A stretch of DNA of 28,075 nt, taken from positions 1 through 28,075 of the IMG/VR virus record IMGVR_UViG_3300017739_000077, one strand, 5' to 3'. Numbering within the stretch: the first letter of the stretch is position 1; each line of letters starts with the position of its first letter. A model generated the notes under the pieces. That model did no database searches. It saw nothing but the letters and a program-made list of their open reading frames with translations, and had not been told where the DNA came from. Made by a program: the position numbers and the translations under genes. This DNA is from a virus. Of this stretch, positions 1 to 6,131 are shown in pieces.

Positions 1-82
1 GCTATTTTGTTGTTGACTATTAGATATAGTTAGATGTAAGGTGGTATATAACCATGACTCATTATATCGGAGGAGAAGAGAC

Positions 83-322
83 ATGACAACAGAATTGCAA
101 AAAGTTCAGGACATAGGTTCGTGGATCGAGGACGGAGATTATCGGGTAGTTAATCATCATTCTATCTTCTTGTTCTATCCACAGAATGACGAGGCTTTAC
201 AGAACCTGATTGATAACACCGATGACGAGGCACAGTTTTTGGGTAATGCCTTGGTTGTTGAACATGGGTATGTGTCTCACTTGGTAGAGTTATTGAACAA
301 CGATGGCTGGAGGATTGTGTAA
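83..322 (+). CDS. Small acidic phage protein, unknown function (79 aa)
   Basis: This is the first gene of the early cluster. I chose ATG 83 because a strong ribosome site (GGAGGAG, 69-75) sits 7 bases upstream; an in-frame GTG at 41 has no such site. The protein is acidic and soluble, without membrane segments or Cys pairs. Its C-terminal half (ALVVEHGYVSHLVELL followed by NNDGWRIV) looks like one compact alpha/beta unit of a kind found in small phage proteins, but I cannot name a family. The stop codon overlaps the next start (TAATG), so the two genes are probably translationally coupled. Coding is well supported; function is unknown. Confidence 0.8.
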   Translation: MTTELQKVQDIGSWIEDGDYRVVNHHSIFLFYPQNDEALQNLIDNTDDEAQFLGNALVVEHGYVSHLVELLNNDGWRIV

Positions 323-495
323 TGGAAAAGCTAGTTTCTTTTGATTTCACGCTAGACAATATCATCAGTGTGAAAGCCCCGAAGGGTACAGACCCTGACA
401 CATTGTTAAACCAATTGCGCGGCAAGCTGTGTGAAGTTATCAACGATGAGTGCGAAGTTTTTATGTTCGAAGGTATTTTTGAGGAGGACGAATAA
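322..495 (+). CDS. Small phage protein, unknown function (57 aa)
   Basis: A short frame beginning MEKLVSFDFTLDN and ending FEGIFEEDE, locked between neighbours by TAATG overlaps at both ends (322 and 495). That arrangement, together with the absence of a gap, is the main evidence that it is translated. The residues suggest a strand followed by a helix (DTLLNQLRGKLCEVI) and then an acidic end. There is no recognisable domain. The role is unknown; by position it is one of the early, probably host-directed genes. Confidence 0.7.
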   Translation: MEKLVSFDFTLDNIISVKAPKGTDPDTLLNQLRGKLCEVINDECEVFMFEGIFEEDE

Positions 496-917
496 TGGGT
501 ACGAGAGCGGTTTATTTTTTCGAGGATAATGACGGTATGTATGGTGTTTACAAACACTATGACGGCTATCCGCAGGGTGCGGCACATCACATCGAGGCGG
601 CAAAGGAGTGGGCATGGAAGTTTCCAAGGTTCGAGGCTGACGAATTTGCGTCCGCGTTTGTTGCGGCAAACAAGAACAAGGACGGTGGCGAGATAAGGCT
701 GATACCATTGTTTGAACACACGTCGACAAGGCAAGTAATGGAAGACCATAGATGGTGTGACTATTACTATCGCATTTCTTATGACAGTGATGTCGGGGAT
801 TTGGTGGTTCAGGTCTTTGAAAGTTTTTACGATGAGGATATCGGTGAGACAGTGTGGAAGCTGATAAATTATATGCCGCATCAACAGATGTTACGCGCAT
901 ATGCGGAGGCAAGCTGA
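495..917 (+). CDS. Conserved phage protein of the GTRAVY type (140 aa)
   Basis: The protein opens MGTRAVYFFEDNDGMYGVYK and continues with HYDGYPQGAA and PRFEADEFASAFVAANK. I recognise this pattern from uncharacterised proteins scattered through phage early regions: an N-terminal beta hairpin with aromatic residues, then a helix with the EADEFASAFVAA segment. No catalytic motif is obvious. The start overlaps the previous stop (TAATG), and the stop overlaps the next start (ATGA), so it belongs to a coupled run of genes. The conserved-family statement is from memory; the function is not known. Confidence 0.85.
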   Translation: MGTRAVYFFEDNDGMYGVYKHYDGYPQGAAHHIEAAKEWAWKFPRFEADEFASAFVAANKNKDGGEIRLIPLFEHTSTRQVMEDHRWCDYYYRISYDSDVGDLVVQVFESFYDEDIGETVWKLINYMPHQQMLRAYAEAS

Positions 918-1078
918 TGACTAAGATAACACCAACACAAGTTGAAGCATGGCTAGGCAGTGATACACTGCCTAGCGAGATACATGAAATTCTGGCTGAG
1001 TTAGCTAATGGCGAATATGACCAGAAGCAGTTAGCTAAAGACATTAGATCCTATGGGTGGGATGAAGAACATGACTAA
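917..1078 (+). CDS. Small phage protein, unknown function (53 aa)
   Basis: The start at 917 overlaps the previous stop (ATGA), which favours it over an upstream in-frame ATG at 854 that would overlap by more than 60 bases. The product begins MTKITPTQVEAWLG and is mostly helical and acidic, ending SYGWDEEHD. A near-perfect DNA palindrome (952-976) lies inside its first quarter and is described separately; it encodes LGSDTLP. A 10-base direct repeat (AGTTAGCTAA, near 1000 and 1031) is also inside the gene. No family is recognised. Confidence 0.7.
   Translation: MTKITPTQVEAWLGSDTLPSEIHEILAELANGEYDQKQLAKDIRSYGWDEEHD
952..976. repeat. Perfect 11-bp inverted repeat with a 3-nt loop
   Basis: The arms GCTAGGCAGTG (952-962) and CACTGCCTAGC (966-976) are exact reverse complements separated by ATA. 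In RNA this would be a very stable hairpin, although the 3-nt loop is tight. No T-run follows on either strand, so it is not a standard intrinsic terminator. It lies inside a coding frame 35 bases after the start codon. It may be a protein-binding site, an RNA processing or attenuation hairpin, or chance. Confidence 0.9.
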
Positions 1079-1202
1079 AAAATATAAACCTGTCGATGGC
1101 TGTGAAGAGTGCGAGTTCTACGAGAGCGCGTGTATTGAATGCATTATGTATGGCGAGGCCGAGGAGATTGAAAATGGGCAAGTTAAAACAGAAGATGATT
1201 GA
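1071..1202 (+). CDS. Cys-pair micro-protein, zinc-ribbon-like (43 aa)
   Basis: ATG 1071 lies inside the end of the previous gene, and the frame runs 43 codons. It contains two Cys pairs, C11-E-E-C14 and C21-I-E-C24, with six residues between them. That is the spacing expected of a minimal zinc-binding knuckle pair. The rest is acidic (EAEEIENGQVKTEDD). The gene is too short to be certain from length alone, but the ordered Cys pairs and the coupled position argue for a real product. Zinc binding is inferred; the function is unknown. Confidence 0.65.
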   Translation: MTKKYKPVDGCEECEFYESACIECIMYGEAEEIENGQVKTEDD

Positions 1203-1467
1203 AGAGATGGACATGGCGCGTGAGTGCGGTGACCTGCGTGGTGATGGGGTTATGTTTACCTGTCACCCGACAGACCATCTGGATTGGTCGGAGGTATCAC
1301 GTTTCATTTATCGGTTACGCGATTACTACGAGTTGGATGGTCGGGAGATTATCGAGGTTAATACCTATCACAATTCAGGCCATGACCTGATGTCTAACAC
1401 ACAAACCAAACCAGCCGAGAACGGCATAGAAATTCAGTGGAGGGAAAGTAATGTCAACACAATTTAA
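1174..1467 (+). CDS. Phage protein of unknown function (97 aa)
   Basis: I chose ATG 1174 because GAGGAG lies at 1161-1166, seven bases upstream. A second in-frame ATG at 1195 overlaps the stop of the previous gene and is a fair alternative. The product begins MGKLKQKMIEEMDMARECG, followed by a mixed segment (VMFTCHPTDHLDWSEVSRF and IYRLRDYYELDGREIIEV). No known domain can be named. Its 3' end overlaps the next gene by 17 bases. Confidence 0.75.
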   Translation: MGKLKQKMIEEMDMARECGDLRGDGVMFTCHPTDHLDWSEVSRFIYRLRDYYELDGREIIEVNTYHNSGHDLMSNTQTKPAENGIEIQWRESNVNTI

Positions 1468-1903
1468 ATCATCAGACGAAGTGGTAAAGATATTGCGGCA
1501 AGCAGACGTGGAGATTGCCACCTACAAGAGGGACGAAGGTATATTGGAACTGACCATTCCTGTTGATGACCCAGTAGAAGATTTAGAATTGGATGATTTC
1601 GAGCGTGGGTTTGTCACTGCCTTTTGCCTAGAGATAAATGATAGGGTTCGGGCTGAGTATGCAGAGTTGGGTCATGTGGATACAGAAGAGTTACCATGTG
1701 ATGATTGGTCTGAAAGGTTTTGCCGTGTGCCGTGGCATTATTCGGCATCGGGTGAAGAGCCAGAGAAGGTGTTCGATATCAATTACGGCTTCATCGAAGA
1801 CAATGGCAGTTACAGGTTTTGGGCTACGGCTTATGCGTTGAACATGAAGGACAAAGGTGATGCATGGCAAACAGATGGCAACAGTTATGTGAGGATAGTG
1901 TAA
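1451..1903 (+). CDS. Acidic phage protein of unknown function (150 aa)
   Basis: The start has a clear ribosome site (GGAGGG just upstream of ATG 1451). The product is soluble and acidic: an N-terminal helix (SSDEVVKILRQADVEIATY), an acidic middle (DDPVEDLELDDFERG), then aromatic-rich segments (DWSERFCRVPWHY, GSYRFWATAYALN). No motif allows a functional call. The stop overlaps the next start (TAATG at 1903), continuing the coupled run. It is one of the two longest genes of the early cluster before the helicase. Confidence 0.85.
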   Translation: MSTQFKSSDEVVKILRQADVEIATYKRDEGILELTIPVDDPVEDLELDDFERGFVTAFCLEINDRVRAEYAELGHVDTEELPCDDWSERFCRVPWHYSASGEEPEKVFDINYGFIEDNGSYRFWATAYALNMKDKGDAWQTDGNSYVRIV

Positions 1904-2166
1904 TGGGTGTACATGATAAAAGCTTTAAGCGAATACAGAACAGACGCATCGTGTTGGATTTAGTGGATGGTCAGACAGGTGACCCTCGCTTGGCAGAAGA
2001 GGCTGTGTTCTACTTTGGGGATGACCCATTTATTATGACGCCTGTCGATATCAAGCATGGTGATACAACGTATCATTTCACAAAGATATTTATGATGGGG
2101 CGCGAGTTCATCGTGACGATGGGCTTGGAAGATTTAAACTACGCATTGTTTCATGAGGAGATGTAG
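1903..2166 (+). CDS. Small phage protein, unknown function (87 aa)
   Basis: ATG 1903 overlaps the previous stop and is preferred over an in-frame ATG at 1864, which lies inside the upstream gene. The sequence begins MGVHDKSFKRIQNRRIVLDL, basic at first, then with beta-type segments (AEEAVFYFGDD, TTYHFTKIFMMGREFIVTMG) and an acidic end. It has no Cys pairs or membrane segments, and no family is recognised. Confidence 0.75.
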   Translation: MGVHDKSFKRIQNRRIVLDLVDGQTGDPRLAEEAVFYFGDDPFIMTPVDIKHGDTTYHFTKIFMMGREFIVTMGLEDLNYALFHEEM

Positions 2167-2167
2167 A

Positions 2168-2398
2168 ATGCTTAATAAACGTGGAAGACCAAAGAAAGTT
2201 AAGACTGTACAGGTAAAGCTAACAGAAGCAGAAATTTCTACCCTGCTTAACTTAGTAGACCTGCGGCACGACAAGCTATTGGAAGATGGGTATGAGGATG
2301 ACTGGGCTTTTACGCAGGATGCATACCCTCAAATGGCGCGGATATACACCATTGGCGCGAAGTTGTTTGAACTGAAAAGGAAGGTGCAAGATGCCTAG
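2168..2398 (+). CDS. Small protein with an N-terminal AT-hook-like motif (76 aa)
   Basis: The start ATG 2168 follows the previous stop directly; GAGGAG at 2155-2160 can serve as its ribosome site. Residues 3-11 (NKRGRPKKV) contain the R-G-R-P core flanked by lysines that defines AT-hook motifs, which insert into the minor groove of AT-rich DNA. The remainder is helical (VKLTEAEISTLLNLVDLRHD, IYTIGAKLFELKRKV). A DNA-binding early protein, perhaps aimed at the host chromosome or a promoter, is a reasonable inference. A short basic match of this kind can also occur by chance. Confidence 0.75.
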   Translation: MLNKRGRPKKVKTVQVKLTEAEISTLLNLVDLRHDKLLEDGYEDDWAFTQDAYPQMARIYTIGAKLFELKRKVQDA

Positions 2399-2786
2399 AA
2401 TATACATCACATGGGAATGGGAAGAAGCCTTTGAAAAGTTCGGGTTCGGGGATGGCGATGGCTGGAACGGAACGCATGAGGTTGAAGGTGAGATTGAAAG
2501 CCTTGGCTATGAGGTCGAGACGGATAGCTGGGGCTGTCACAATTACATGATCTTTGACATCAAGAAGGACGGCAAGTCCATCCTGTTTCCCGAAGGCAAT
2601 GAAATCGGCAATCGTCTAGATGACTGGTTGCCAGAGGTAGAACAAAGGATCAAGGATCGAGGTCCAAGGAATCCGAACGTGGAACCATTGGGCTATGAGC
2701 CAGCGCGTAATTACTTGCCGAACGATATCATTGAACATCTGGACAAGGTATTCAACGAGGAGTGGGAGGATGATTATTATGCGTAG
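2391..2786 (+). CDS. Acidic phage protein of unknown function (131 aa)
   Basis: It overlaps the previous gene by 8 bases. The sequence is Trp- and acid-rich (ITWEWEEAFEKFGFGDGDGW), with a central segment resembling a small alpha/beta fold (DSWGCHNYMIFDIKKDGKS) and a very acidic C-terminus (FNEEWEDDYYA). Strong acidity and small size are common among phage DNA-mimic and inhibitor proteins, but nothing here proves that role. No family is recognised. The stop overlaps the next start. Confidence 0.85.
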   Translation: MPRIYITWEWEEAFEKFGFGDGDGWNGTHEVEGEIESLGYEVETDSWGCHNYMIFDIKKDGKSILFPEGNEIGNRLDDWLPEVEQRIKDRGPRNPNVEPLGYEPARNYLPNDIIEHLDKVFNEEWEDDYYA

Positions 2787-2964
2787 GGCGGCGGACATGA
2801 CAGTCGAGGAGTTCAAGGCGCATCTCAAACGACAGATGGATGAAGTGCTGCATTTTGATAACTATCGTGATGGGCAGAGACGCGCAACTAGGACGCAACA
2901 AACATACTCAACGAAGGTGGCTATGCAACGTGGGCGGACTAGCAAGTGGGGGTATTTTGGATGA
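2779..2964 (+). CDS. Small basic phage protein (61 aa)
   Basis: ATG 2779 is placed 9 bases after GGAGG (2765-2769) and overlaps the previous stop; an in-frame ATG at 2770 would sit on top of that ribosome site. The product starts MRRAADMTVEEFKAHLKRQM and turns strongly basic (DGQRRATRTQQ, MQRGRTSKWGYFG), which suggests nucleic-acid contact. That is inference from charge only. Its stop overlaps the next start (ATGA at 2961). Confidence 0.7.
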   Translation: MRRAADMTVEEFKAHLKRQMDEVLHFDNYRDGQRRATRTQQTYSTKVAMQRGRTSKWGYFG

Positions 2965-3086
2965 TACATTGCAGAAAGTGTGCCAAAAAGGCTATCGTCA
3001 TAGAGCAGGGGTGGTATTACTGTTGCGAATGTTGGATGAAAATATTTGGAGGAAAGTTTCGTGCAGTCACGGATGAAAAAAAGTAG
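2961..3086 (+). CDS. Cys-pair micro-protein, zinc-ribbon-like (41 aa)
   Basis: The start overlaps the previous stop (ATGA). The product, beginning MIHCRKCAKKAIVIEQG, carries C4-x2-C7 and then a C21-C22-x-C24 cluster, separated by a short strand segment (AIVIEQGWYY). This is the layout of a minimal zinc ribbon. The C-terminus is basic (KIFGGKFRAVTDEKK). It is the second of three Cys-pair products in this early cluster. Zinc binding and any regulatory role are inferred; it is short enough that translation needs confirmation. Confidence 0.65.
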   Translation: MIHCRKCAKKAIVIEQGWYYCCECWMKIFGGKFRAVTDEKK

Positions 3087-3279
3087 ACACAACGCCACAA
3101 AGTATAAGGTGCTGGTGGCTGTGGAATGCATCAAGGAATATAAAGTGGTGGCGCGAGACAAGGAAGAGGCTAGCGCATTTGCAGAGGCCAGAGCCATGAA
3201 AAACAACAACAGCCTTGCGGTAAAAGGATATGTCGTGGGGGATGTTGAAACAGCCTTGGTAGAGGAACTAAAGAAATGA
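3061..3279 (+). CDS. Small phage protein with a beta-alpha segment (72 aa)
   Basis: Two starts compete. GTG 3061 has a strong ribosome site 8 bases upstream (GGAGG, 3048-3052). ATG 3073 has none, and I prefer the GTG. The protein has a basic N-terminus (SRMKKSRHNATKYK), then a strand-helix-strand pattern (YKVLVAVECIKEYKVVARD, EEASAFAEARAM, VVGDVETALVEELKK). The strand plus 'EEA' helix is loosely reminiscent of DpnD/PcfM-like small proteins, but the match is weak and I would not transfer a function. Confidence 0.7.
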   Translation: MQSRMKKSRHNATKYKVLVAVECIKEYKVVARDKEEASAFAEARAMKNNNSLAVKGYVVGDVETALVEELKK

Positions 3280-3554
3280 AGACGGAAAAAGAAAAGGCGG
3301 ACAAGGCATCAGATTTGGTAATGGATTTGCTCGACCAGATGAAAGAGTTGGATCTAGACCCAGACTATGCGGCCTTTGTCATGCTGTCTACGGGCGCAGG
3401 ACTGGCGATAGCCAGCAATCGTGACTCGCCTATCGTGGTTAATCAGCTTATCGCAACAGCGTTGCTGGTAGCAAATCAAAACGTCCTGGGGGCAGAAGCC
3501 GACCAAGAGGAAGATGAAGATGAGGAGGGGGATACAGATGAAACATTTCACTGA
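3276..3554 (+). CDS. Helical protein with a highly acidic tail (92 aa)
   Basis: The start overlaps the previous stop (ATGA). The sequence has a charged N-terminal helix (KTEKEKADKASDLVMDLLDQ), a hydrophobic Ala/Leu-rich centre (VNQLIATALLVANQNVLG), and ends in an almost uninterrupted Asp/Glu run (DQEEDEDEEGDTDETF). The hydrophobic part is too short and too mixed for a confident membrane call. Such tails occur in nucleic-acid mimic and chaperone-like proteins. The function is unknown. Confidence 0.75.
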   Translation: MKTEKEKADKASDLVMDLLDQMKELDLDPDYAAFVMLSTGAGLAIASNRDSPIVVNQLIATALLVANQNVLGAEADQEEDEDEEGDTDETFH

Positions 3555-3915
3555 TGGCGATGGGTCATGGCAAATGCGGTTGGACGCAGGTCGCTGTCCC
3601 AAATGTTGTAGCAAACTTACGTTGAGTAAAGTAGACGGAACTATCTTTTGCGATGTATGTGGCCTTGAGGTTGTTGACAGTTCGATAGTATTTGATACTA
3701 TATCAAATAGGGACAAGGAGTCTGAGATGGAAACACATTTAATGCCTGACGAACAAACTATCGCGGACAAAGAACCGAGGATGCAGTGGCAAGAAGCAGT
3801 GTCTTTGATCGAAGGTATTCTATTGGATGAAGCCGAAGACATAGAAAAGCAGGACGGCAATCCTGAGTTAGCGAACGAAGTCCGTGCCGCATGGCATAGA
3901 ATTTTACAGGGGTAA
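3538..3915 (+). CDS. Zinc-ribbon protein with helical C-terminal part (125 aa)
   Basis: I chose ATG 3538 because AGGAGGGGG precedes it; upstream in-frame ATGs lie inside the previous gene. The N-terminal part has a complete four-Cys ribbon, C20-P-K-C23 and C38-D-V-C41 with 14 residues between, of the TFIIB or RNA polymerase accessory type. The C-terminal half is helical and acidic (MQWQEAVSLIEGILLDEAED). At residue 64 there is a second in-frame ATG (3727) with its own AAGGAG and an upstream promoter-like element, so the helical half may also be made alone. A transcription-related role is plausible but inferred. Confidence 0.8.
   Translation: MKHFTDGDGSWQMRLDAGRCPKCCSKLTLSKVDGTIFCDVCGLEVVDSSIVFDTISNRDKESEMETHLMPDEQTIADKEPRMQWQEAVSLIEGILLDEAEDIEKQDGNPELANEVRAAWHRILQG
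3674..3701 (+). promoter_or_regulatory. Internal promoter-like element with operator-like palindrome
   Basis: TTGACA (3674-3679) is followed after 16 bases by TACTAT (3696-3701), a plausible sigma-70-type pair. A perfect inverted repeat, ATAGTAT and ATACTAT around TTG (3685-3701), fills the spacer and covers the -10. AAGGAG (3715-3720) and an in-frame ATG (3727) follow. The element lies inside the zinc-ribbon gene, so coding constraint or chance cannot be ruled out. Confidence 0.45.
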
Positions 3916-3917
3916 TT

Positions 3918-4154
3918 ATGTCGGACGATAACGTAGTTTATCTGCACAGTAAACTTGTGTTCAAAGCAGACCCAGTTCCAACAGTGTGTGAACTTGCAGG
4001 AAAGATCCTAAAGGATGTGGTTATCATGGGGGAGGCAGAGGATGGGACTATCAAGATGATGACAACCCAGCCCGACCCCGCAGAAATTTTATTTTATTTG
4101 GAGTCTGCCAAGTTTGCTATCATGGCAGGAGGAGGATTGGATGACGGAGATTAA
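3918..4154 (+). CDS. Conserved-type small phage protein (78 aa)
   Basis: The gene begins two bases after the previous stop and starts MSDDNVVYLHSKLVFK. The rest includes VPTVCELAGKILKDVVIMG, then a strand pair (EDGTIKMMTTQ) and a helix (PAEILFYLESAKFAIM). The pattern is familiar to me from small proteins next to phage helicases, but no function has been attached to it that I know of. It overlaps the next gene by 14 bases. Confidence 0.8.
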   Translation: MSDDNVVYLHSKLVFKADPVPTVCELAGKILKDVVIMGEAEDGTIKMMTTQPDPAEILFYLESAKFAIMAGGGLDDGD

Positions 4155-4326
4155 TGTAAGCACTGCTGACTTTTTAGATGTGTGTGAATTGTATTACAAG
4201 GGCAAGGTCAACATCGAAGAGGCTACGGCTATGATTTGGGGCATACTTCCTGAACTAAAAGAGGAAGCTATTATGGATATGCTGGAGGGTTTCGAACGGG
4301 ACAACGTAGTTCCTTTCGGAAAATAA
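4141..4326 (+). CDS. Small acidic helical protein upstream of the helicase (61 aa)
   Basis: ATG 4141 has an excellent ribosome site (GGAGGAGG just upstream). The product is mainly helical (TADFLDVCELYYKGKVNIEE, LKEEAIMDMLEGFERD) and ends DNVVPFGK. Its stop is four bases before the helicase start, so it belongs to the same transcript. It could be a partner or regulator of the helicase, but that rests on position only. Confidence 0.75.
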   Translation: MTEINVSTADFLDVCELYYKGKVNIEEATAMIWGILPELKEEAIMDMLEGFERDNVVPFGK

Positions 4327-4330
4327 TAAA

Positions 4331-5788
4331 ATGTTCAAGTACAAAACAAAACCATACGCGCACCAAGAGACTGCGCTACAGAAGTCCTATAACAAAAAGA
4401 ACTACGGTTACTTTATGGAGATGGGTTGTGGCAAATCAAAGGTTCTCATCGACAACATCACTTGGCTCTACGAGGAGGGTGAGATCGACACCGCTATCGT
4501 CGTCGCACCCAAAGGAGTCTATCGCAACTGGCAGATATCAGAGATACCGACTCATTTACCAGAGGACATTGAACACGAGGTATATGTTTGGAGTGCGAAC
4601 CCAAACAAAAATCAACGTGAAAAGCTGTCCGCTGGGGTTGAGGAGCGTAAGAAGCTCCGCATTCTATTGGTCAACGTGGAGGGGTTTGGCGCGTCGAAAA
4701 AGGTTGCTCAATATGTGGAGCATTTTACACGAGGTTCGTGTTTCCTACTTGCGGTTGATGAGAGCACAACTATTAAGAACCCCAAAGCCAAGAGGACTAA
4801 GGCTCTGGTTAGCCTTGGTCAGAGTGCAGCGTACAAGCGTATACTTACCGGGTCGCCCGTTACTAAATCGCCTATGGATCTCTACGCGCAATGCGGATTC
4901 ATGGACAAGAAACTACTCGGCTTCGACAGCTACTATTCGTTCCAAGGACGATACGCTATCACGAGAACTCAACGCATGGGTTCGCACAGTTTCCAGCAGA
5001 TTGTGGGCTATCGCAACCTTGAAGAACTATCGGACAGGCTGACAGGCTTTTCCTATCGGGTGACCAAGGACGATGCTTTGGATTTACCTGACAAGGTTTA
5101 CACTACCCGCGAAGTAATGATGTCTAAGGAACAGCTAGAGTACTATCACTCTATCAAGACAGCGGCTATCGCTCTGCTAGATGATGGTCAGTTGGTGTCG
5201 GCACCAGCAGTCATGACCCAGTTACTGCGCCTACAGCAGGTGTTGTGTGGGCATCTGATGACGGACGATGGAGAGTTAGTCGAGTTCCCAACCAGACGCA
5301 TTGACGCCCTCCTGGACACGGTTAACGAGATGTCTGGTAAGGTAATCATCTGGTCTAGGTTTCGGTATGACATAAGAAAGATAGAGGCAGAACTAGCCAA
5401 GGTTCACGGACCGAGTTCCGTTGTCACATATTATGGGGACACCAGTGATGAGGACAGGCAGACGGCTGTTCGCAGGTTCCAGTTCGAAGATGCAAGGTTC
5501 TTCGTGGCGAACCCACAGACAGCGGGTTATGGTTTGACGTTAACTGCGGCAACAAATGTAATCTATTATGCCAATGATTTTAATCTGGAGACTCGCGTCC
5601 AGTCAGAGGATCGGGCACATCGGATTGGTCAGAATCATTCTGTGACGTATGTGGATCTGGTGACAAAGGGGACGGTGGACGTTCATATTGTGAAGACTCT
5701 TCGGAACAAGATTGATTTGTCTGCAAAGACGTTGGGTGAAGAAGCGCGTCAATGGTTGGAACTTGACCCCCGCAAAAGTGCTGATTAG
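4331..5788 (+). CDS. SNF2-type superfamily 2 DNA helicase/translocase (485 aa)
   Basis: This is an ATP-driven double-strand DNA translocase used by phages in replication or recombination. Visible motifs, in order: I/Walker A M31-GCGKS (K35), II D143-E-S-T, III T173-G-S, a second RecA-like domain beginning at KVIIWSRF (337-344), V A398-GYGLTLTAA, and VI Q424 to Q434, including R428, H430 and R431 (SEDRAHRIGQ). RIGQ is diagnostic for the SNF2 group. At 485 aa it is a minimal helicase core without accessory domains. The ribosome site is weak (GGAAAA), so translation may depend on the upstream gene, whose stop lies 4 bases before the start. The gene ends in a terminator hairpin, separating it from the replication block. 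Confidence 0.95.
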   Translation: MFKYKTKPYAHQETALQKSYNKKNYGYFMEMGCGKSKVLIDNITWLYEEGEIDTAIVVAPKGVYRNWQISEIPTHLPEDIEHEVYVWSANPNKNQREKLSAGVEERKKLRILLVNVEGFGASKKVAQYVEHFTRGSCFLLAVDESTTIKNPKAKRTKALVSLGQSAAYKRILTGSPVTKSPMDLYAQCGFMDKKLLGFDSYYSFQGRYAITRTQRMGSHSFQQIVGYRNLEELSDRLTGFSYRVTKDDALDLPDKVYTTREVMMSKEQLEYYHSIKTAAIALLDDGQLVSAPAVMTQLLRLQQVLCGHLMTDDGELVEFPTRRIDALLDTVNEMSGKVIIWSRFRYDIRKIEAELAKVHGPSSVVTYYGDTSDEDRQTAVRRFQFEDARFFVANPQTAGYGLTLTAATNVIYYANDFNLETRVQSEDRAHRIGQNHSVTYVDLVTKGTVDVHIVKTLRNKIDLSAKTLGEEARQWLELDPRKSAD

Positions 5789-6131
5789 CTATTTTGTTTG
5801 CGGCGTTTTTAGTGCCTTGGGCTGTGGGAAATCGGGATAGTTGATGTGGATACAGTGCACACTTCTCGGACTCTAGGTCTACATACAGAAGTCGAACACC
5901 AAGTTTTTGTTGAGTTGGTTTTAACATTCGTGAGATTATCGAGCCGTCTTTTCTGCGGCCTACAGTCTTCACATCAAACAAAAGAAATTCACCTTTAGGG
6001 GTGAGTGCGATAAGGTCGATAGGACCTTGTTCAATAAAAGGAGCATAGACGTAACAGTTTTGTGAGATTAACCATTGAGCCGCGATTAGTTCAGAGCGTT
6101 TACCGTCTCTAACTTTATGATCTGGTCTCAT
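5580..6131 (-). CDS. PD-(D/E)XK-type nuclease with antisense C-terminal tail (183 aa)
   Basis: Residues 10-60 carry the PD-(D/E)XK nuclease core. There is a helix with E14 (GKRSELIAAQWLIS), then P37-I-D39 after EQG, then D53-V-K55 at the end of a strand (GEFLLFDVKT). This resembles Holliday-junction-resolvase-like and VSR-like folds; substrate and polarity cannot be told. The core ends near residue 105. Residues 115-183 are read antisense to the last 209 bases of the helicase gene and are Ser/Pro/Asp/Gln-rich, probably disordered. It is the only minus-strand gene between 83 and 13854, and it is divergent from a ribbon-helix-helix gene. The ribosome site is weak (AAGTAAGA). The nuclease call is good; the extent of the tail is uncertain. 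Confidence 0.8.
   Translation of the reverse strand: MRPDHKVRDGKRSELIAAQWLISQNCYVYAPFIEQGPIDLIALTPKGEFLLFDVKTVGRRKDGSIISRMLKPTQQKLGVRLLYVDLESEKCALYPHQLSRFPTAQGTKNAANKIANQHFCGGQVPTIDALLHPTSLQTNQSCSEESSQYERPPSPLSPDPHTSQNDSDQSDVPDPLTGRESPD
5770..5810 (+). terminator. Intrinsic terminator at the end of the helicase gene
   Basis: CCGCAAA (5770-5776) pairs with TTTGCGG (5797-5803), with a small inner hairpin GCT-GATT-AGC, and CG plus five T (5806-5810) follow. The stop codon of the helicase lies in the loop. Only the + strand has the T-run, so it should end early-cluster transcription before the opposing nuclease gene. Confidence 0.7.

Follow-up and report, generated by a model that had tools for sequence, protein, structure and literature searches.

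The stretch of DNA analyzed here (hereafter the window) is the 28,075-base virus record IMGVR_UViG_3300017739_000077, from an uncultivated marine phage, which begins with a row of short genes ahead of a gene for an SNF2-type helicase. Positions 83-4326 are tiled by 17 ATG-started open reading frames (ORFs), g01 to g17, with gaps of no more than 4 nt between them (Table 1). We consider it likely that this row is an array of swappable genes leading the replication-side operon, with a second promoter and an internal start predicted inside g15.

A row of small overlapping genes

A gene caller written for this analysis, which uses codon usage and ribosome-binding sites (RBS) and which was trained on orthologs of the array genes and is hence not fully independent, returned the same genes (17/17). 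When the junction to the helicase gene is counted, genes overlap at 14 of 17 junctions; four of these overlaps are of 1 nt (TAATG or TGATG), two are of the ATGA type, and the remainder span 8-29 nt. The ratio of nonsynonymous to synonymous change (dN/dS) was below 1 against diverged orthologs for every frame and ranged from 0.03 to 0.56 in the closest informative pair. (Note that g04 has a single diverged ortholog, and that g15 gave 0.75 against the near-identical relative L003 and 0.26-0.40 against others.) Dense overlap was also found in all complete relatives. These findings confirm that the cluster of small overlapping genes is real and more than a product of chance. An earlier interpretation made from the letters alone (the sequence-only reading) had described eighteen genes chained by overlapping stops and starts; the chaining stands, whereas the count falls to 17, the eighteenth being a predicted in-frame gene within g15, g15C. 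Neither of the outcomes that this reading had named as refuting it, relatives lacking the frames or an absence of coding constraint, was observed.

That reading was also right that almost none of the products can be named. No product of the 17 genes exceeded the Pfam cut-offs, and the only match to a PHROG was that of g16 to phrog_11040, a family of unknown function (2e-7). Three products carry Cys pairs (g05, g12, and g15), as had been noted. The AT-hook-like motif reported for g09, KRGRPKK, is present, but its Pfam match falls below the cut-off (E 0.28; 11.6 bits versus 17.4). Similarly, the two products singled out as very acidic are so, g10 having an isoelectric point (pI) of 4.3 and a charge of -20 and g14 a pI of 4.1 and a charge of -17, but the pI is 5.0 or less in 13 of the 17 products; acidity thus singles out no product, and we ruled it out as a mark of DNA mimicry. 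As a separate observation, the GC skew is 0.25-0.27 in the array (window 1-4000) and 0.13-0.16 in the genes behind it.

Fixed ends and an exchanged middle

A megablast search of 50,697 phage records with the window gave no near match, and tblastn searches of the same records with g03, g10, g15, and g16 gave no match. The DNA polymerase I and SNF2-type helicase of the window share 44-53% identity with their counterparts in 023Pt_psg01, in DSL-LC04, and in the pelagiphages HTVC023P and HTVC027P. In the three of these that were examined (023Pt_psg01, DSL-LC04, and HTVC023P) genes other than the array adjoin the helicase gene, so that these phages share the polymerase and helicase with the window but not the placement of the array. 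Phages of the HTVC023P type and of the Roseobacter CRP-901 type (PMC9599517, PMC10149686) are among the closest known systems. Relatives were collected by searching viral contigs with the helicase, which yielded 80 marine contigs (L002-L081; 76-100% identity). Complete loci, from g01 to the helicase gene, number 23, of which 21 are distinct, the window included; a set of 73 loci (257 kb) served for counting array families and for scanning promoters. A genome scan with g03 gave one Maricaulis-labelled contig, which is itself phage-like and thus does not point to a host.

One relative, L002, reaches 2.7 kb further to the left than the window. Upstream of its array lie a leftward gene of the terminase small-subunit type, another ORF in the same direction, and a GP88 gene (PF17338, 5e-27); the terminase gene, whose label comes from a Pfam match to the equivalent gene of another phage, L202, is on the opposite strand upstream of the array in both L002 and L017. 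Hence the array is the start of a rightward transcription unit running into the helicase and polymerase genes. Ahead of the cluster, L002 also has stretches of repeats resembling GCCGCAGG/GTCGCAGG between its genes (60-100, 710-735, and 1555-1680).

Each complete locus contains 12-21 genes, with 65-94% of junctions overlapping. The first called gene is g01 in all but one of them, and the row is closed by g15, often a gene of family F003, g16, sometimes g17, and the helicase gene. Between these ends lie cargo genes in varying order; in L006, for example, g08 follows g01, and in L015-L018 g02 and g08 stand together after g06 or a gene of family F011. Content thus varies among close relatives while the flanks are conserved, as in an accessory region with conserved borders. 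Across the 73 loci there are 112 array families. Singletons account for 29, including a few that are probably spurious calls in low-complexity stretches; cargo families recur in other marine phages.

The exchange is also evident within a single pair of phages. When the window is compared with L003, the share of synonymous changes among codons for the same amino acid is 0.00-0.02 in g14-g17 and the helicase gene, 0.05 in g01, 0.22 in g07, and 0.33 in g03 (heterogeneity among genes: chi2 173, 15 degrees of freedom, p 6e-29), and within one phage pair the spread among genes reaches about 30-fold. This unevenness argues that genes were exchanged singly or in small groups. Moreover, the right-hand genes (g15, g16, and the helicase gene) behave as core genes tied to the replication module and not as cargo.

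It is very improbable that the array mainly reflects neutral or slightly deleterious turnover of passenger ORFs. Turnover is indeed very high, as the singleton families attest; such an explanation would nevertheless have to account for purifying selection on every array gene of the window, for cargo families common to unrelated marine phages, and for the retention of RBS and overlap structure.

Two side observations concern the cargo proteins. An N-terminus of the form MGK[VL]K is common to 54 proteins of families that are otherwise dissimilar, namely those of g06, F009 (L029:5430-5630), and F016 (L024:968-1132); F009 and F016 align solely over their first 16 residues. Separately, the arrays of eight relatives have an insertion encoding F031, a protein some 385 aa long that carries an HNH_2-like domain (e.g. 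L016:4205-5419), and F079, found in L065 and L079, resembles part of it without the HNH domain.

A conserved internal start and a predicted promoter within g15

The N-terminal half of the g15 product contains a putative zinc ribbon (CPKC...CDVC), in which the second CxxC pair is invariant and the first nearly so. Two CxxC knuckles are what is expected of a ribbon of the TFIIB/RNA polymerase type, and the best profile matches in the PDB include zinc ribbons (E 0.006-0.04); the match to the Pfam family Zn_Ribbon_TF was under the cut-off (17.2 versus 29 bits), and a Foldseek search with the g15 model returned zinc-ribbon-containing chains at non-significant values (best E 0.43). The C-terminal half is helical and ends in W-x-R-I-L-x-G. 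In the AlphaFold model the two folded parts are separated by a low-confidence linker, and this linker contains codon 64 (position 3727), an ATG preceded at 6 nt by the Shine-Dalgarno sequence AAGGAG.

This internal start is conserved. In an unselected alignment of the g15 family, a start codon occupies the column in 25 of 32 rows, and all 25 have a Shine-Dalgarno sequence, as compared with 42% for the next best of the 52 conserved internal start-codon columns found across all families. Among 31 distinct sequences with the motif [MV]xETxL, the internal codon is ATG in 30 and GTG in one, and at a fixed spacing before it stands xxG GAG (GAA twice), although the residues before the E vary (K, Q, E, or W). 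In all 24 cases that allow a synonym, the base before GAG is G (against a background of about 0.5-0.6), and 29 of the 31 sequences use GAG itself (background 0.52). The motif misses the L051 group, which has AAGGAGGAGTCA-ATG or AAGGAGGGGTCA-ATG at the internal start.

Consistent with two joined units, the halves of g15 are encoded separately in L030-L031 and in L024-L027, where an unrelated gene stands between them; in L049 only the C-terminal half was found, and in L024 and L025 the fusion partner of the zinc ribbon is a DpnD-like domain. Both a conserved internal start with a Shine-Dalgarno sequence and the existence of the part as a separate gene in relatives are features of in-frame nested genes, and on these comparisons g15 appears to hold a second gene, g15C, in the same frame.

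The same linker carries a sequence resembling a sigma70-type promoter, which we refer to as P2; between window positions 3640 and 3730 the signal elements are TTGACA, TGATACTAT, and AAGGAG. From its position, transcription would be expected to begin near 3708, some 20 nt upstream of the internal ATG. In the 257 kb of arrays, 30 promoter sites had a combined score of at least 13, and 27 of these lie in g15 and none in the helicase genes. P2 occurs in each of the two deep clades into which the helicase tree divides, and synonymous recoding of the linkers lowers the promoter score (observed mean 11.6 versus 9.0 for the null; z 5.2; 13 divergent groups). The full pattern of promoter, Shine-Dalgarno sequence, and ATG occurs once in the window and in 0 of 100 shuffles; in a scan of the whole collection many unrelated phages were among the matches listed, as expected for ordinary promoters. 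Note that the score was defined after the site in the window had been seen and that the relatives are not independent, so that the p-values are nominal and the promoter figures serve to rank the site, not as proof.

Upstream of the internal start the window also has an inverted repeat, TTTGATA-CTA-TATCAAA (3692-3708), and L013 has TCTGATA-AAA-TATCAGA at the same place. A conserved RNA hairpin is not claimed, the repeat being present in the window and L013 only.

Table 1. Features of the array and its borders in the window
Feature	Position	Strand	Remarks
Leader	1..82	+	TTGACT at 13-18 conserved in every relative within the window's clade; g01 preceded by Shine-Dalgarno GGAGGAG (leader comparison)
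g01	83..322	+	79 aa; heads the row in nearly all relatives
g02	322..495	+	57 aa; cargo; travels with g08 in L015-L018
g03	495..917	+	140 aa; widespread marine phage cargo family; confident model
g04	917..1078	+	53 aa; cargo
g05	1071..1202	+	43 aa; four Cys; cargo
g06	1174..1467	+	97 aa; N-terminus MGKLK; cargo
g07	1451..1903	+	150 aa; acidic; cargo
g08	1903..2166	+	87 aa; cargo; position differs in relatives
g09	2168..2398	+	76 aa; weakly AT-hook-like N-terminus; cargo
g10	2391..2786	+	131 aa; charge -20; strongly conserved; cargo, also in other phages
g11	2779..2964	+	61 aa; basic; cargo
g12	2961..3086	+	41 aa; putative zinc ribbon (weak Pfam matches); cargo
g13	3073..3279	+	68 aa; DpnD/PcfM-like by profile comparison
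g14	3276..3554	+	92 aa; acidic tail; near-core
g15	3538..3915	+	125 aa; zinc-ribbon and helical domains joined by a linker; core, with predicted nested gene
P2, predicted sigma70-type promoter inside g15	3674..3701	+	TTGACA-16-TACTAT; TGA before the -10 element
Internal Shine-Dalgarno AAGGAG	3715..3720	+	conserved; 6 nt before the internal ATG
g15C, predicted nested in-frame gene	3727..3915	+	62 aa; METHLMPDE...RILQG
g16	3918..4154	+	78 aa; core; phrog_11040-like
g17	4141..4326	+	61 aa; in part of the relatives
SNF2-type helicase	4331..5788	+	fixed right end of the array; Pfam SNF2-rel_dom 1e-20, Helicase_C 1e-13

Beyond the array, a leftward gene (window 5580-6131, minus strand) overlaps the end of the helicase gene; its product resembles phrog_5018, a PHROG of unknown function (5e-6), and looks nuclease-like by eye.

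We reasoned that the promoter region next to the divergent terminase genes would drive g01 and then the chain of small cargo genes, and that the polycistronic message from this leader promoter would be translated through the overlapping stops and starts, with coupling probable. Related phages would exchange the cargo gene by gene, the chain ending in the fixed block of g15, often F003, g16, sometimes g17, and the helicase gene. P2 and the internal RBS and ATG in the g15 linker would then restart transcription and translation, such that g15C, g16, g17, and the helicase would be made whatever lies upstream. If the right-hand block can be expressed independently in this way, insertions, losses, and swaps of cargo would not starve the replication genes. 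We infer that P2 and the internal start are in use and that the replication genes are buffered against cargo turnover. In the specific form of this proposal, g15 is an insulator derived from a fused gene, whose linker promoter, RBS, and start codon uncouple the replication operon from the exchangeable cargo. Two products would result, a zinc-ribbon fusion where reading begins at the first promoter and just the helical domain where it begins at the second; we regard this specific form as about evenly balanced between right and wrong.

Several observations weigh against the arrangement as proposed. The -10 element of the leader promoter in the window is weak, and some distant relatives have coding-like sequence ahead of g01, so that g01 is not always the first gene. 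P2 is missing in the L041 and L051 groups, in which g15 is fused and the internal Shine-Dalgarno sequence and ATG remain, and in L014 and L069/L073, which have very short linkers, neither P2 nor the internal Shine-Dalgarno/ATG signal was found. The post hoc scoring of P2 counts here as well, and both the use of P2 and internal initiation are predictions. An explanation that builds on such points is that the internal start is unused, the linker being conserved for the fused protein's own sequence and the match to a Shine-Dalgarno sequence and promoter being incidental. The residues around the site (D-S, D-x-I, and E-x-E-M-x-E-T) are indeed partly conserved, and P2 has been lost in some groups. 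However, synonymous choice favors both GGAG and the promoter beyond what the protein sequence dictates, two lineages encode the C-terminal half as a gene of its own, none of the other conserved internal Met codons is accompanied by a conserved Shine-Dalgarno sequence, and matches to P2 are almost confined to the g15 linker. We therefore consider an unused start unlikely.

Possible cargo functions and related systems

Comparison of 144 proteins from across the arrays with Pfam, PHROGs, NCBIfam, and PADLOC named almost nothing, the exceptions being zinc ribbons, DpnD/PcfM-like domains, HNH nucleases (F031), and DUF3846. Family F066, present in relatives, has an NrdR-like zinc ribbon with a weaker match to the Lar restriction-alleviation family. 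The g13 product groups with the DpnD/PcfM-like families F026 and F015 (profile-profile probability 85-90%); g13 itself did not match Pfam PF14207, which F026 reaches at 2e-5 (24.7 bits versus a cut-off of 25). Searches of PDB profiles with g01, g03, g10, and g16 returned designed proteins or chance matches only.

The most suggestive context is that of g03. In 31 loci of other phages, within L185-L224, a C5 cytosine DNA methyltransferase gene (PF00145; 5e-41 in L202) directly follows a relative of g03, and a gene of family F016 usually comes next (e.g. L202:4001-5579); in L202 the pair is preceded by a divergent gene for a terminase small subunit. This pairing, judged from gene order, favors a counter-restriction role. 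The structure model of g03 is confident (mean predicted local distance difference test score 92); Foldseek found no solved counterpart in the PDB (best E 0.09) and one significant match in a viral library, to an unnamed protein, the other matches there being uncharacterized. As for DNA mimics such as Ocr and ArdA, g10, which has 67 relatives, had no Pfam or PDB profile match and g03 no fold match; g10 and g14 were not folded.

The sequence-only reading had taken the cluster for a likely seat of host-takeover and anti-defense genes. Its dense leader cluster of unassigned genes is real and has an exchangeable middle, and the position of the cluster, downstream of the terminase-divergent promoter region, together with that middle, is as expected of accessory host-interaction loci, which supports this part of the proposal. 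We infer that most of the cargo serves to redirect the host or to counter host defenses. In a stricter sense, the array might be an anti-defense island, most of whose cargo inactivates restriction-modification, CRISPR, or other defenses right on entry. Its place at the start of an operon, high gene turnover, and small acidic products are in keeping with this, as are the g03 relatives directly before a C5 methyltransferase gene, the NrdR/Lar-like zinc ribbon of F066, the DpnD/PcfM-like families, and the precedent of plasmid leading regions, which cluster anti-defense genes and orphan methyltransferases (PMC11541004). Against this, profile searches of each of the 17 products, the check that had been suggested, returned no anti-defense family above cut-offs, and the weak Lar-like match is found in relatives only. 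Moreover, PADLOC detected only HNH nucleases and two weak matches in the relatives, the C5 methyltransferase is absent from the helicase-defined relatives, and the fold of g03 has no solved match. The strict form is thus a serious possibility that we nonetheless rate slightly below even.

Takeover clusters of phages T4 and SPO1 likewise consist of short ORFs of unknown function at set loci, varying among close relatives between conserved flanks. Such variable regions are found at specific loci in many phages, for example the Mu-like phages of Pseudomonas (PMC4378225), whose accessory regions the array resembles in these respects, as it does the exo-xis region of lambda (PMC6213356). The array differs from them in being the leader of one operon, with nearly all junctions overlapping, an almost fixed first gene, and a predicted restart signal at the border of the core. 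With the anti-defense islands of plasmid leading regions (PMC11541004) it shares small, mostly uncharacterized genes clustered at a leading end and, in relatives, methyltransferases; unlike them, it belongs to a phage operon and not to a conjugative leading strand, and in the window it has no recognized anti-defense gene. The array thus belongs with phage accessory regions and merely resembles the plasmid islands.

Lambda C/Nu3 is an example of a nested gene in the same frame. Others, reviewed in PMC6854812, are M13 pII/pX, phiX174 A/A*, and plasmid TrfA and RepR, in which, as predicted for g15C, a shorter product is made in the same frame from an internal start. The g15 gene is unlike these systems in that its parts are separate genes in some relatives and in that its linker encodes a predicted promoter in most; repR of pIGRK, in contrast to the g15 linker, was shown to have no internal promoter. 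In a limited literature search we found no prior description of a fused gene whose linker holds both a nested start and a promoter for it.

These findings predict in g15 a hidden gene and promoter, both of which standard annotation misses, and provide a catalogue in which the positions of about 100 families of small proteins are mapped and a few, g03 and g10, are ranked for testing. The near-fixed first gene, the swappable chain of coupled genes, and the second start predicted in a core gene would together make up a layout by which marine phages may exchange cargo without breaking the operon.

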